A stretch of 37,067 bases of DNA, taken from positions 1-37,067 of the IMG/VR virus record IMGVR_UViG_3300009285_000034; one strand, 5' to 3'. Positions 7,360-34,583 of the stretch are shown one piece after another. The notes below the pieces were generated by a model. The model made no database searches, was not told the origin of the DNA, and was given only the letters and a program-made list of their open reading frames with translations. The stretch is from a virus. Made by a program: the position numbers and the translations under genes. Numbering within the stretch: position 1 is the first letter of the stretch; every line of letters starts with the position of its first letter.

Positions 7360-8526
7360 ATGTCAATAAAAGGTCTTACCGATCGCGGATCTGCCTTTCC
7401 CGAAATTGGTTTTATCCGCAAGGGTGCTGCCAAAGACCCTGCTGCCAACCGGCCCGGCGCCGATCTCCAGCACTTCCGGGTTGAGTTTGAAGCTGATGAT
7501 CCGCGCGGCGCGAAGTTTATTGAGGTCTACGGCCCGAAGCCTACCGACATCAATATCATTTTCCCGTTCAATGAAATGGAGCGCAATTGGGATGCTTGGT
7601 TCGAGGCTTACACCGCCGGGCGCATGGTGGCCCGGTCGGACGGAGAATTTTTTACGTACCTGGTGGATATCAAAACTGGCGAACATGTGGTCATTAACGG
7701 CGTGGACGCCAACGGCGCGAAAGTTCCGCACCGCGAGATTGTAGGATCATACGCCAAGCAGAATGGGCAGGGTATGGAAGTGATCAAAATGAAACCAGTC
7801 GGACGGCTGAAGGTGGTCATCCCCGAGCTTCAATCTCTGGCCTACCTGACGGTTCATACCACGTCGATCTACGACATTATGAATATTTCCAGCCAACTTG
7901 AAGCGGTGCAGCAGATGAACTCGGGCCGGATTGCCGGCGTTCCACTGGTCATGCGCCGACGTAAGCGGACGATCTCCACACCTGATCCGAAAGACCGGTC
8001 AAAACGCGCCCGCCGGGAGAAGTCTTTGATCTCGATTGAAGCGAATCCTAAATGGGTAACAAAGATGCTGGCTTTCGTGGATATCCTGGCGCTGCCCGGC
8101 AATGGGTTGAACCTGCTGCCTGAAGGAGACTTGCCCGAGGAGAAATTTCCCGAACTGCCCGCGGGATCAGATAATGACGAGGACGAGGATACCCAATATT
8201 ATGACGAGATAGGGGATGATCCCCAGCCCGCCGAACCTTCCAACCTGGAAAAGGCCGAGGCGATCCCCACACTGGCGACGCCGGCGGTGACCGCTGAACT
8301 TGTTTATACCGCCCCGCTGGGTAAGATAGGGAAAAACTTATACCCTTCCACATGGGGGCTGTACATCATGCCGAAGCTGAAAGAATTAATCGACGTGGAC
8401 GGCAAGCCGATCAACGGTTTCCACCTTGACGGCATCCTGGCCGGGCTGAGATTGCCGCAAGATACCGCGCCGGTCAAAGTGTTGGAAGCGGTCGCCGCGC
8501 ACCTGGCAGCGAAATCTGCCGCCTAA
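7360..8526 (+). CDS. gp3 / recombination-directionality-factor-like protein
   Basis: This 388-residue protein opens KGLTDRGSAFPEIGFIRKG and continues with a beta-rich domain, a middle reading IAGVPLVMRRRKRTISTP then RREKSLISIE, an acidic linker (about 265-295) and a helical C-terminal domain. The N-terminal two-thirds resembles the phage gp3-type RDF family, named for the phiC31 factor that reverses serine-integrase recombination. No integrase is present, and many family members lie among DNA-metabolism genes, so a role in phage DNA transactions is as likely. The family call rests on remembered motif similarity. Confidence 0.55.
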   Translation: MSIKGLTDRGSAFPEIGFIRKGAAKDPAANRPGADLQHFRVEFEADDPRGAKFIEVYGPKPTDINIIFPFNEMERNWDAWFEAYTAGRMVARSDGEFFTYLVDIKTGEHVVINGVDANGAKVPHREIVGSYAKQNGQGMEVIKMKPVGRLKVVIPELQSLAYLTVHTTSIYDIMNISSQLEAVQQMNSGRIAGVPLVMRRRKRTISTPDPKDRSKRARREKSLISIEANPKWVTKMLAFVDILALPGNGLNLLPEGDLPEEKFPELPAGSDNDEDEDTQYYDEIGDDPQPAEPSNLEKAEAIPTLATPAVTAELVYTAPLGKIGKNLYPSTWGLYIMPKLKELIDVDGKPINGFHLDGILAGLRLPQDTAPVKVLEAVAAHLAAKSAA

Positions 8527-29433: not shown

Positions 29434-30090
29434 CTAAACCGTAAAGACATCCCCGGCGTCATCAAATAAAAAATGTTGGCAATTTGGCGGCCAGGTTCCG
29501 CACTGGTAATTAGGATTACCGCGCGCAGGCACCAACCCGTGGCCGACCCACCAGGCCGCGCGATGCCGCTGGCCCTTCATACGTTGACAGTCTGGGCACG
29601 ATTCACTCCCATCCGGCCCTCCAAACGTGAGTATACGATTCCCCGCGCCCCTTACCCGCCCTTGATTATAGATCGCATCCAGCCCGCGCGCATACCCGTC
29701 GGCCCGGGCGTCGGCTACACCGTCAAGGATGGATATGCCGTCCTCGATGGATTGTTTCTTCAGGGCCTTCAGATCCTGGAACAGACCGTCGATGTGGCCG
29801 AACTCAGCGTCTACCTGGGCATTGACCCAATCCAAATCATCGCCCCGCGCGAGCGGTTCTCCGCCGCCGTCCTCCATGCCCTGCTCGAAGGCCGGCACGA
29901 ACGCTTCGACCACGGCTTTTTTGAATGCGTTGCGGAAACGGGTAATCCTTGCGCCCTCTTCCGTGAACAGAAAATCGCCCACGGCGGCATACACGGCATT
30001 GCGGTACTGGGTGCGGATCGGGGCGTAGTTGCCTATTTCCAGTTGCGCACGGGCGGCGCTGTGGGATAGCTCTTTGAGAATGTCAGACAT
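29434..30090 (-). CDS. MuF-like minor head protein (218 aa)
   Basis: Located directly after portal, as in Mu-like and SPP1-like phages. The C-terminal region has ARADGYARGLDAIYNQGRVRGAG, then CPDCQRMKGQRHRAAWW and a later cysteine pair (YQCGTWPPNCQHFL), the conserved cysteine/histidine ending of many head morphogenesis proteins and probably a zinc site. GGAGGT precedes the start. The protein likely joins portal to capsid inside the procapsid. Confidence 0.78.
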   Translation of the reverse strand: MSDILKELSHSAARAQLEIGNYAPIRTQYRNAVYAAVGDFLFTEEGARITRFRNAFKKAVVEAFVPAFEQGMEDGGGEPLARGDDLDWVNAQVDAEFGHIDGLFQDLKALKKQSIEDGISILDGVADARADGYARGLDAIYNQGRVRGAGNRILTFGGPDGSESCPDCQRMKGQRHRAAWWVGHGLVPARGNPNYQCGTWPPNCQHFLFDDAGDVFTV

Positions 30091-31450
30091 CACGTGCTAC
30101 CTCCTTGACCATATCAGGATGCTGCAACATGTACCGCGCCCAACGCGCCTGAAGAGACGCCTGTGCTTGCGGGGTGTCGTTGGCCGGGGCCTCTGCGTTT
30201 CCTGAAGGCACCCTTGCGGTGTCAGGAAGTGCCTCGGGGAGGAAACCGGTCAGCTTGCGGATCGCGGCAAAATCCTCGTCGCCCATCGGCATCGTATCCC
30301 GGATCGGCGCCAGAAGCTGGGCCAGCTCGGACAGGGAAACCTTTTTCCCCAACGGGGTGACGGTTATGCGCGGCCTGGCGGTCAGCCCTGTGAAAATCGA
30401 CGGATTCCACTGCGCCAGTTTCGATACCAGCTTTTTGTCGATTTGCGACGCGAACCCGTCCATCATCGCATTGAACGTAACCATGAACATGGACGAGCTG
30501 TCGCTCATCGCGGCCAGAGATCCCGTGCCCGTGGTTGCGCTGAGCGCAACCCATTGCATGTTAAACAATTGCAGCTTGAGGACGCCGTAATATTTGATCG
30601 CCTCCAGGATCGAGGCGGCGGCGGCAAAGTTCACATCCATCAGTTCGCCCACGAACCCCGCTGGCCAGGTGGCGTAATTACCCTCCTGTGCGGTCATGAT
30701 CGCGCGGGCCGCCTCGCGGATCGCGACTTTGTCTGTATCGTCTAACTTTTTCTCAGTCTTAACACTTAAATAACCGGCAGAATGTTCAAACCCCATCCCT
30801 TGCACGATTTCCAAACCGTATTTTATGCGCTCCAAACGCCAGACAGCTTCCAGTGGGGTCAACCCCTCCGGGTTATGCGCGTCGCCGAACGTCAGATGCA
30901 GACTGTCCTCCAGCGGCAGTGTCACCTCCGGTTCGGGGTAGATATACTGGGTCATGCCTCGAACTTTGCCATTGTCCGAGAAATCCCACTTAAAAAAGCT
31001 GGAGGAATCCCGCCAGCCCAGCCGACGGATGCCAATGAGATTATCTTTGTACTGGCTGCGCCAATCGTCCTCCCCGGGTGGGGTCCACGTCTCCGAGCGC
31101 ATACCGGGCACAATCTCCCACCATCCCCAGCCGAAGAACGGCACATTGCCGATCAGGGTATCGATAAACGTGCTTTGCCCGCCGTCCATATCCTCCATAG
31201 TCTGCTCGATAAATTCGCCGGCCCGCTTGTCTTTATCGGTCGCCTTGTCAGGCAACTCGACCTGCAAATTGATCCCCCGGGCCAGCGCCGAGAAAATCAC
31301 GCGCACAATCGATACCTCCGGGTCTGACCGGCGCATGCGCGAGTAGAGCGGCTGAACGCCTGGCCAGCGCAAATCGCGATGGTACGCGGTTTCCACAAAG
31401 CCCATAAATTGTTGCAGTCCAGTGTAACCGCGCTCGTTATAATTCGGCAT
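30083..31450 (-). CDS. Portal protein, Mu gp29-like
   Basis: This 455-residue portal has the gp29-type landmarks RDLRWPGVQPLYSRMRRSDPEV, FFGWGWWEIVP, HLTFGDAHNPEGLTPLEAVWR and FNAMMDGFASQIDKKLV. It forms the dodecameric DNA gate. AGGAG lies in the end of the homing endonuclease gene, which overlaps by 14 bases. Its first 27 codons are a divergent second copy of the portal start at 32182-32265. The C-terminal linker carries repeat copy R4 (translated DTARVPSGN). Confidence 0.88.
   Translation of the reverse strand: MPNYNERGYTGLQQFMGFVETAYHRDLRWPGVQPLYSRMRRSDPEVSIVRVIFSALARGINLQVELPDKATDKDKRAGEFIEQTMEDMDGGQSTFIDTLIGNVPFFGWGWWEIVPGMRSETWTPPGEDDWRSQYKDNLIGIRRLGWRDSSSFFKWDFSDNGKVRGMTQYIYPEPEVTLPLEDSLHLTFGDAHNPEGLTPLEAVWRLERIKYGLEIVQGMGFEHSAGYLSVKTEKKLDDTDKVAIREAARAIMTAQEGNYATWPAGFVGELMDVNFAAAASILEAIKYYGVLKLQLFNMQWVALSATTGTGSLAAMSDSSSMFMVTFNAMMDGFASQIDKKLVSKLAQWNPSIFTGLTARPRITVTPLGKKVSLSELAQLLAPIRDTMPMGDEDFAAIRKLTGFLPEALPDTARVPSGNAEAPANDTPQAQASLQARWARYMLQHPDMVKEVARDV
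30200..30237. repeat. Palindromic repeat copy R4 in the portal C-terminus
   Basis: TCCTGA...TCAGGA encloses CACC-CTTGC-GGTG, followed by AGGAAGTGCCTCG. Compared with R1 it lacks the middle hairpin and a CGAG tetramer but keeps GCGGTGTC, AGGAAG and TGCCTCG in order. Confidence 0.6.
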
Positions 31451-32144
31451 CTATTTTCTCCTTTTTGCGCCGCTTCCAGAATTCACGCATGCCTTCACTA
31501 ATTTTTATTTTGACATCTGGGGGCATTTTTACCCCAATTTTGGCGGCGCTAATTTTTAATTTGACATCTAAGGGCATCTGATGTTTTTTTGCTAGCTTGG
31601 CGGCGCTTATTTTTGCACAATGCTCATCCGAAAACACCCTATTCTTCATAGCCGCTCTCATTTTTTCTCTTGTCTCTTGTGATATCGGGGGGAGTTTCCT
31701 TCCTCGATTGGCGTTGCCAATTTTTTCTTTGGTTGCCTCAGACATGGACCTTTTGGGTTTTCCCCTTTGTGCATCGCCAATATGCCTACGCCTTTCTTCG
31801 GAATGTGGACGGCCTTTCAATGTGGCACTAATTTTTGCCTTCGTTTCTGCGCTAGGATGTAATCCAAACGCACCATCCCCGCCCAGTGTCGCGTTGTAAT
31901 AACCATATTGAGCAATAAACTCTATTTCTTTCTGGCATAATAGGTTTCTGTCGTTGCTCTCAAAAAGAACAAACCAATCCCATGCATCTTTGCCATATTT
32001 TCTTATAGCGTCTGCAAAACGATAATGTTCGCCCTTATCAGCAGCAGCCAAATGACGATCCATTCTACGTTTAAATCCGTAGGTAGTTATGCCAACATAA
32101 GCATGACCATTTATTTTATTTCTCGCCATATAGACTACGCCCAT
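31437..32144 (-). CDS. GIY-YIG homing endonuclease with NUMOD3 repeats
   Basis: This 235-residue protein starts GVVYMARNKINGHAYVGIT, a clear GIY-YIG motif, with KRRMDRHL and a later IEFIAQYGYYNATLGGDG as the remaining nuclease core. The C-terminal half has repeated NUMOD3-type DNA-binding segments (TKAKISATLKGRPHSEE, TREKMRAAMKN, KLKISAAKIGVKMP). GGAGG precedes the ATG at 32144, with a private TATAAT at 32176-32171. It is free-standing between terminase and portal and probably cuts the portal gene of related phages. Confidence 0.92.
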   Translation of the reverse strand: MGVVYMARNKINGHAYVGITTYGFKRRMDRHLAAADKGEHYRFADAIRKYGKDAWDWFVLFESNDRNLLCQKEIEFIAQYGYYNATLGGDGAFGLHPSAETKAKISATLKGRPHSEERRRHIGDAQRGKPKRSMSEATKEKIGNANRGRKLPPISQETREKMRAAMKNRVFSDEHCAKISAAKLAKKHQMPLDVKLKISAAKIGVKMPPDVKIKISEGMREFWKRRKKEKIDAEL

Positions 32145-32170
32145 AAGATCCTCCATTATATTTTAATCTA

Positions 32171-32176
32171 ATTATA
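32171..32176 (-). promoter_or_regulatory. -10 element of the homing endonuclease gene
   Basis: Minus-strand ATGGTATAAT, ten bases also found at the tnpB promoter (11196-11187). The -35 is poor. It overlaps the point where the truncated portal copy ends. Confidence 0.45.
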
Positions 32177-32181
32177 CCATG

Positions 32182-32265
32182 TCAGCGCAGATCCTTATGG
32201 AACGATTCTTCGATGTAGCCGTAAAATTCATGCAACCCGGTTTTGCCAATTTCCTGAAAATTCAT
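32182..32265 (-). pseudogene. Truncated first copy of the portal gene start
   Basis: The ATG at 32265 has GGAGATAAAA upstream, inside the end of the terminase gene. The ORF encodes 27 residues: it keeps TGL, F, G, E, H and ends KDLR before TGA. The working portal start reads ERGYTGLQQFMGFVETAYHR then DLRW. About 12 of 27 residues are identical with the same length. The original portal frame was therefore cut after codon 27 and the homing endonuclease lies immediately beyond. Confidence 0.8.
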
Positions 32266-32267
32266 TT

Positions 32268-33653
32268 TTATCTCCAGCGACTCTCGAAATTCTCAACTTT
32301 GTTCAGGTCTTGCACATCGTCCCAGTCTGCGCCGGCGCCGATAAGCTCGTTGTACATGCCTGAAGCCGCGTCCATTTCGTCGTCATGTTTTAATTCCGGC
32401 TGTCCATGCATGTGGTTAAGCCAGCGGTCATTCCACGCTCCGCGCAGCAGTTTGACGTTTCCGGCCAGCGCCTGGGCCGACAGTGGTTTAGCCCTGGTGA
32501 TCTTGTCGCCTTGAGGCGGGATGCCGCGCACATCATAACCTGCCAGGTGGGTGACGATATGATAAGCATCGCGCTTGCCGCTCGCTCCCCCCTCCTGCTC
32601 GAATCGGATATCCACGTTTTTCCCATCTTGTCCGGCTGTGTTTTTCATAGTCGTATCGGCTCGAGCAGGATCGATTTGCTCATTGGTTGCATCCAGGATA
32701 TAAACGATGCCATTGGCTATTTTGCCCTTGCATGACGCAGTAAAATCGGCGCTCTTTTTCTCAGTGGCCGCCAGGTCCCAGAAGCGCACTTCACGCCCGC
32801 CGGCAGGCACAGCGTCTACAATCTCGAACCAAGCCTTGTTGAATACCTTCCCGGCGGACGGCTTAATCTTCCAGTTCCCGCCGCGCCGCTTGTCACCTAG
32901 CAGCCGCTCGCGGTCCACCAGGGGCAGCGCTTGCAGATTCGCCAGATATCCAGGGTCTTTATCCAGCAGGATCTGATTGTCGTAAATCGTCGAGAGAATA
33001 AAGGTGACAGATTTGGGCAAACTGTCAGGATATTTTGCCAGCAGTTCGCCGGCAGTGTCGGCCCAGATGATTTCTTCGTTAACCCGAACCATCCAGCGGA
33101 TTTTACCGGAACGTTCGAGATTGGCATATCCGTCCTCGTTGATCCACCAGACCAGGAAATCAGCCAGCCAGCCAGGCTCGGGGTTGCAGGTCGCACGGAT
33201 ATAAGGCCGCACACCTACCGTGGACCGATTCCTGGACAACATATAGAAGAATTGATGCTCGGTAAAGGTTTCTAATTGGTCAAAAATTAATAGAGGAACT
33301 TGTGAGCTTTTCCAGTCGTTAACCGTATCATCGTATTGCAAATGTGAAAACGTTACCCGCGATCCTTCGGGAAAATTGAATTGATGCTCGTTTTCGTTGG
33401 GCTTGCCGTCCAGGAGTGGGTACATTTTCTGCGCCTCATCCCATAAACCGCCCTCTTTGATGATTTCCGAGATAGAACGCCGGAAGATGACTGCGCCAAA
33501 ATCTTTGTTGCCTTTGTGGCGGAGAGGCTCCATTAACAAAGCGTATGTTTTTCCCCCACCAGCACTTCCGCCAAAAATAGCGATGTCCGCCGAAGATGCC
33601 ATGAAGGTCTCTTGGCGAGGCTGGGGGCGAATGTCAATCACTTCCGCGATCAT
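32268..33653 (-). CDS. terL: Terminase large subunit
   Basis: From the ATG at 33653 this is 461 residues. The ATPase has Walker A GGSAGGGKT (28-36) and Walker B LLIFDQ (121-126). The nuclease domain begins near FWDLAATEKK with D293 as first acidic residue and ends with KHDDEMDAAS. It packages DNA into the prohead. The start lies in the end of the small-subunit gene with AGGGAAAA upstream. Confidence 0.95.
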   Translation of the reverse strand: MIAEVIDIRPQPRQETFMASSADIAIFGGSAGGGKTYALLMEPLRHKGNKDFGAVIFRRSISEIIKEGGLWDEAQKMYPLLDGKPNENEHQFNFPEGSRVTFSHLQYDDTVNDWKSSQVPLLIFDQLETFTEHQFFYMLSRNRSTVGVRPYIRATCNPEPGWLADFLVWWINEDGYANLERSGKIRWMVRVNEEIIWADTAGELLAKYPDSLPKSVTFILSTIYDNQILLDKDPGYLANLQALPLVDRERLLGDKRRGGNWKIKPSAGKVFNKAWFEIVDAVPAGGREVRFWDLAATEKKSADFTASCKGKIANGIVYILDATNEQIDPARADTTMKNTAGQDGKNVDIRFEQEGGASGKRDAYHIVTHLAGYDVRGIPPQGDKITRAKPLSAQALAGNVKLLRGAWNDRWLNHMHGQPELKHDDEMDAASGMYNELIGAGADWDDVQDLNKVENFESRWR

Positions 33654-34197
33654 TGTTTTCCCTGTTGTTGTCAGGAATATACACATTCACAGTCGCGGCG
33701 GGTAGTTCCTTGCCGTTAGTGGTTAAGTCGGTCCGGTCAATCAACTTACCCCGATATTTCAAAATGTCCTTTTGCGCCTCGTGGGCGCTGTAAAGCTCCA
33801 GTTCTGTTTCCACAATTTCGCGGTCTTCTTCATCCTCTTTCTTCGCGAGATAGGTTGTCACCTTTTGCTTTATCTTTTTGATGAGTTTTGTTTCCGGCTT
33901 CACAATCAATTCCCCCGCCTCGTTTTTTTTCATCAGATTGAGCGTAAAGCCAGAAGTGGTTATGTCCATCAAATCAGCCAGATCTCCGTCAGCAATGTCT
34001 GACAATAAACTGGCTGCCTGGTCAGCCGACATGATACGCTCGTCAATGGATGCCTTTATGTCAGCATTTGACAACAAACGGCTACCTTGCTGGCGTGCTG
34101 TTCGTGGAGAATAGCCAACCTCCTCAGCCGCCTTCGTGGCGTTGAAGTGTGTCAGATATCTGTCCAAAAACATGCGCTGTTTGTTGTTTAAACTCAT
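33634..34197 (-). CDS. terS: Terminase small subunit
   Basis: This 187-residue protein opens NNKQRMFLDRYLTHFNATKAAEEV then GYSPRTARQQGSRLLSN, the N-terminal helix-turn-helix of the Terminase_2 small-subunit family. A lysine-rich middle and helical oligomerisation part follow. GGAGGCGC precedes the ATG, which overlaps the upstream stop. It recognises the packaging site, probably near this gene. Confidence 0.92.
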   Translation of the reverse strand: MSLNNKQRMFLDRYLTHFNATKAAEEVGYSPRTARQQGSRLLSNADIKASIDERIMSADQAASLLSDIADGDLADLMDITTSGFTLNLMKKNEAGELIVKPETKLIKKIKQKVTTYLAKKEDEEDREIVETELELYSAHEAQKDILKYRGKLIDRTDLTTNGKELPAATVNVYIPDNNRENNDRGSD

Positions 34198-34583
34198 GCG
34201 CCTCCGCTTTTGCGCGGCCTGGTGGGCGTGTTGCCACTGGCCTTTTCCGATTCTTCAATTTTGCGCTGCCGGTAGTATGCCTGCATCATCCCCTGTTCCA
34301 CCGCCTTGGTGATCGCGTCGGCCATTTTGTTGACGATCATGTCCTGGATAGCCTCCGTCATGTTGGCCTGCTGCTTCTCGATCACACTGGATGAGCGCAG
34401 TTTGCCGGTCAGGAACCAGTAAACCACCAGTACCAAGATCGCAGTACTGCCGCCGGTGGACACAAGGTCCATCACTGTTTGGGCCGTCGGATCGGCAATG
34501 TCAAACAAACCCAGGATGCGCAAAACGGCGAATGTGGCGGCGATAAAAGGGGCCGCGTTGTTGATCATGTCACTGGCGCCCAT
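34194..34583 (-). CDS. Membrane protein with coiled tail (129 aa), holin-like candidate
   Basis: Two hydrophobic helices (about 12-30, PFIAATFAVLRILGLF; and 46-60, AILVLVVYWFL) precede a soluble helical tail ending in basic residues (RQRKIEESEKASGN, RPRKSGG). Placed between a second membrane gene and terminase. It could form a holin/antiholin pair with the next gene. No strong ribosome site is visible. Confidence 0.55.
   Translation of the reverse strand: MGASDMINNAAPFIAATFAVLRILGLFDIADPTAQTVMDLVSTGGSTAILVLVVYWFLTGKLRSSSVIEKQQANMTEAIQDMIVNKMADAITKAVEQGMMQAYYRQRKIEESEKASGNTPTRPRKSGGA

Follow-up and report, generated by a model that had tools for sequence, protein, structure and literature searches.

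In the genome of an uncultured phage (IMG/VR record IMGVR_UViG_3300009285_000034, of which a stretch of 37,067 bases, here called the window, was analysed), two versions of the 5' end of the portal gene flank a homing endonuclease gene, as profile search, nucleotide comparison and self-BLAST agree, and I lean towards the explanation that entry of this endonuclease left a hybrid 5' end in an essential gene. More tentatively, the locus could be the first viral, 5'-end counterpart of the endonuclease-borne hybrid genes of fungi, in which one-sided homing gave a rebuilt virion gene its new N-terminal arm while the resident arm stayed on as a stub. At exchange junctions with homing endonucleases it can seldom be told whether the enzyme caused the exchange or came along with it; one that holds both the old and the new start of an essential gene places the break within a few codons, and with both starts retained the homing model becomes testable. 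If the model is true, insertion into an essential gene is survivable, with the element itself supplying the missing end.

The genes concerned lie on the minus strand in the order terL, stub, GIY-YIG reading frame and portal (Table 1). The stub ATG stands 2 nt past the terL stop codon with GGAG ahead of it, and its frame (MNFQEIGKTGLHEFYGYIEESFHKDLR, then a stop) has its terminal TGA where the working portal has Trp29, the stub reading TGCGCTGA and the portal TGCGCTGG. An earlier reading of this DNA, made from its letters only (the sequence-only reading), had pointed to GCGCTG as shared by both copies at the break, and TGCGCTG is indeed found in both. The same reading had noticed that the endonuclease gene runs over the ATG of the working portal, which falls within the final 14 bases of that gene and has GGAG 8 nt upstream. 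That two phages of one sample were merged in assembly is barely credible: the record is metagenomic and no second contig crosses the junction (L017, with an identical terL, ends inside terL), but endonuclease and portal start overlap in a way that works, ribosome site included, and the end of the stub and the sequence joined to it share no long identical stretch by which an assembler could be misled.

Table 1. Positions in the window of the features at the terL/portal boundary
Feature	Position	Strand	Basis or remark
terL, large terminase	32268..33686	-	PF03237/PF17289, phrog_979
terL C-terminal tail, residues 450-472	32271..32339	-	type common to terLs upstream of this portal clade; tail HMM 27.9 bits, L002 alignment
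27-codon stub, a portal gene 5' end with its own ribosome site	32182..32265	-	HMM E=1.1e-7
free-standing GIY-YIG homing endonuclease with NUMOD3 repeats	31437..32156	-	Pfam, PHROGs; likely true start 32144
overlap of endonuclease 3' end and portal start, 14 bases	31437..31450	-	sequence read
working portal start, residues 1-28	31367..31450	-	predicted coil before first helix (29-42), low confidence
working portal gene, 455 aa	30083..31450	-	Portal_Mu (Pfam), phrog_113, Foldseek to portals E=4e-16

The working portal scores 26.8 bits against Pfam Portal_Mu (cut-off 23.9), belongs to phrog_113 in PHROGs and, in a structure model of low confidence (mean pLDDT 61), has phage portals as its best PDB matches (Foldseek, E=4e-16). 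In the same low-confidence prediction the first 28 residues form a coil that precedes the first helix (29-42), so that an exchange of this arm would be tolerable. For the gene in between, a GIY-YIG domain (PF01541, 35.9 bits, cut-off 22.6), three stretches matching NUMOD3 in Pfam and assignment to phrog_314 (homing endonuclease, E=2e-34) support the type proposed in the sequence-only reading. Its better start is probably the second ATG (32144), which has GGAGGA ahead, and its GC3 is 0.35 against 0.69 in the portal; by domain content and codon usage this is a homing-type endonuclease of foreign composition. The gene sits between the stub stop and the portal start, outside any intron or intein, and a group I intron was rejected, since neither this nor any other RNA family matched in Rfam with E up to 1 in positions 30000-34300. 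No sigma-70 promoter was found for the endonuclease, though a TATAAT is present upstream. A search for a donor or sister phage with this endonuclease found none (the best endonuclease match has 38% identity over part of the protein), and nothing comparable to a partial gene duplication was seen near ten distant endonuclease relatives (L004-L013).

Portal searches of viral contigs recovered the loci L002 and L003 at 67% identity and L036 at 63-66%, and a profile-based portal search raised the total to 57 loci. In these three relatives, which allow the comparison with endonuclease-free phages that had been suggested, one uninterrupted portal gene begins directly behind terL (MAVEFSEIGRTGL or MDFREIGSTGL) with no endonuclease, and since relatives' portals start there, the stub occupies the native place of a portal start. 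A second portal start was found in none of the 45 other distinct portals of the clade (on contigs, some of which end near the gene), so that no endonuclease-free relative with both copies, the observation that had been named as speaking against homing, appears among them; a GIY-YIG gene lies at the terL/portal boundary in 1 of the 46 loci of the clade. A scan of genome contigs with the portal profile, together with a plasmid search, found no relative, and a degenerate DNA pattern for the stub lineage retrieved L002 and L003 only.

A family profile built on portal residues 2-29 from the 46 distinct portals and run on six-frame peptides recognizes the stub with E=1.1e-7 and the working portal start with 1.2e-13, while self-BLAST aligns the two with E=1e-7 and 50% identity, which bears out the resemblance first noticed in a 27-codon frame with a good ribosome site behind terL. 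The working portal does begin with a divergent version of the same residues: over 26 aligned codons the copies share 60% of their nucleotides and 50% of their residues, and they are thus divergent alleles and not near-copies. Over the same 78 aligned nucleotides, identity is 0.60 between stub and working start, 0.65 between stub and L002, 0.60 between stub and L036, 0.69 between working start and L002 and 0.68 between L002 and L036, so the two copies in this one genome are about as far apart (60%) as species of the clade are from one another (63-69%), and a recent duplication of the portal's own start was rejected in view of this divergence. The stub opens with MNFQEIGKTGL and the working portal with MPNYNERGYTGL, and the first residues of the L002/L003 and L036 starts are closer to the stub than to the working portal. 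Base composition is of no help in telling donor from resident, with GC3 of 0.54 in stub and working start alike.

The stub retains Glu6, Gly8, Gly11, Gly17 and Leu27, residues that vary little or not at all across the family, and carries Ser and Phe in place of Ala22 and Tyr23, both invariant in 46 of 46 portals. That the stub is a small gene with a function of its own, such as a leader peptide or a coupling element for the endonuclease, is highly improbable; its good ribosome site and the lack of an internal stop would fit such a role, but it occurs in no relative, it is without residues that are invariant in the family, and the native portal gene accounts for both its ribosome site and its position. 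When neutral drift was simulated by random mutation of a starting sequence to the observed divergence (20,000 runs each), the protein score of the stub was reached in 0 of 20,000 runs from the working portal, from L002 or from L036, and in 0.15% of runs from L045, which argues that the stub was still coding, within working portals, while it diverged. On this comparative evidence the stub was severed recently, relative to its divergence from other portals, and two old functional portal lineages are joined at this locus. Both copies would also lie in one genome and one subclade if the phage had duplicated its own portal start in tandem around the endonuclease and the two had since diverged, yet this is very unlikely, given that the copies are as distant as different species and that the stub bears marks of coding selection which an idle copy would not retain over such time.

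The terminase adds the context in which the stub is found. The body of the window terL belongs to a family whose members precede many different portals. Its final 23 residues (GADWDDVQDLNKVENFESRWR plus flank) are instead of the type that ends terLs in front of this portal clade; L002 shares this tail, although its terL body has just 25% identity to that of the window. A tail profile built without the window scored window terL residues 450-472 at 27.9 bits and L002 at 25.7 (the 34 training tails were picked by motif, which biases the count of positives, and both L002 and the window lie outside that set), and it matched none of the 21 terL loci without this portal (L014-L034). The type of the tail and the position behind terL suggest that tail and stub form a unit normally found before and at this portal's start, in support of the sequence-only reading, which took the stub to be the start of the resident portal. 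The terLs that precede this portal clade fall into at least 8 body families (BLAST clusters, E 1e-5).

In the homing explanation, the donor phage would already have carried a free-standing GIY-YIG gene directly upstream of its portal gene and overlapping it, an earlier association suggested by the present overlap of the two genes, with the portal's ribosome site lying inside the endonuclease gene. The gene would have entered the present phage where the resident portal gene was broken within its first codons, presumably by the GIY-YIG enzyme, after which the right-hand end would have paired with the donor portal inside the conserved DLRWPGVQPLYSR region. The left-hand end would have been joined, without the help of homology, to the sequence just ahead of the endonuclease gene; with so many terL body families in front of this portal, an absence of upstream homology is plausible. 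The outcome would be terL, the 27 codons of the resident portal as a dead stub, the endonuclease, and a donor 5' end in frame with the portal body.

The extent of donor sequence was addressed by codon usage, trees and scans. Working portal and L002 agree in codon at 41% of shared residues gene-wide, at 16 of 20 in codons 16-40 and at 15 of 22 in codons 26-50, and when the portal is divided at codon 28 for tree building, the N-terminus joins L002 (support 83, a weak placement from 26 residues) while the body falls outside L002 and L036 (89). Scanning the portal for segments that agree more with L002 than with L036 gave codons 15-45 as the best one (permutation p 0.01 by site), and again with one vote per codon (p 0.19); other third sequences gave different best segments in most comparisons, segment 151-160, in which the working portal is like L036, scores equally well by site, and codons 1-10 show no likeness to L002. 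Codons 15-45 thus hint at an L002-like tract spanning the break, which at the per-codon value was set aside as proof of conversion. An imported tract, if any, more likely ends near codon 45 than near codon 28, by a signal that fails the per-codon test, and, if the tract is real, the boundary at codon 27/28 put forward in the sequence-only reading would be the left junction only.

The main rival, ordinary module exchange, leads one to expect the same anatomy. An illegitimate crossover would have joined terL and 27 portal codons to the endonuclease-portal unit of another phage, making the endonuclease a passenger and the whole portal a gene of the second phage. The terL/portal boundary is often exchanged, terLs of the window's family precede many unrelated portals, this portal clade occurs with the range of terL bodies counted above, and the working portal contains no significant lineage switch when each codon is counted once (p 0.19). 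However, such an exchange leaves unexplained why the crossover fell within ~40 bp of the endonuclease gene, and I consider it unlikely, if well worth keeping in mind.

The homing explanation is not without precedent. In fungal mitochondria, genes rebuilt by mobile endonuclease reading frames keep a relic of their native 3' end, as in Allomyces atp6 and Glomus atp6, atp9, cox2 and nad3, and there, as here, a mobile endonuclease frame lies between two versions of one essential-gene end, the native end being a relic and the inserted end divergent (PMC3630166). However, it is the 3' end that is replaced in fungi and the 5' end here, in a phage and with a GIY-YIG enzyme, and close fungal relatives show the native end nearly unchanged (PMC3630166), whereas the phage relatives here are only 60-70% identical. 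Among phages, one source relates that free-standing endonucleases split nrdA in Aeh1 (mobE) and gene 60 in T4 (mobA), that they too lie within an essential coding region, and that co-conversion of flanks is established for such enzymes; the split genes stay separate working polypeptides (PMC2988022), whereas the portal here is whole and the stub redundant. The T4 Seg endonucleases come close in being GIY-YIG enzymes, free-standing between essential genes, with overlap of a neighbouring gene and a flank co-conversion mechanism, but a truncated copy of the target gene is not described for them in the text consulted (PMC2988022). A limited search of the open literature found no described phage case of a truncated 5' end beside a rebuilt gene, which sustains for phages the claim of the sequence-only reading that such fossils are rarely visible, while the fungal hybrids, as close parallels, count against it more generally (PMC3630166). 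The kind of event is already known, and its 5'-end version in a phage portal looks new.

Nuclease genes between terL and portal are also known from Skunavirus, whose HrdP proteins are of the HNH type, are present in all Skunavirus examined and are thought to act in packaging (PMC12724721), unlike the GIY-YIG gene of the window, found once among the 46 loci of its portal clade. Endonucleases are common at phage exchange boundaries near terminase and capsid genes (PMC10448857). HNH endonuclease genes were seen in L076 (2093-2656, minus strand), in the terL-portal gap of the same portal clade on the opposite strand, and in L034 (2696-3406, plus strand), directly behind terL with another portal, and endonuclease genes have landed at the terL/portal boundary more than once.

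The terL tail may be of wider interest than the stub. A C-terminal tail of ~24 residues, with a consensus like DWddvseLGhVedYeSrWk, is carried by terLs that precede this portal clade (window, L002, L036, L040-L093), and since the terL C-terminus of lambda contacts the portal (PMC4856287), the tail may by analogy serve for docking to the portal and travel along with it. A conserved small reading frame of ~70 residues, like ASGVMTVFYFGRLIALVNEAGEIVWRD..FLVEYLIE..WN, lies between terL and portal in one branch of the clade (L051, L059, L063, L069, L075, L076, L080, L084, L089 and L093). Elsewhere in the window, a frame at 7360-8526 (plus strand) has a Gp3-like domain (PF18897, recombination directionality factor-like, 108.5 bits), and from this domain match the phage may be temperate.
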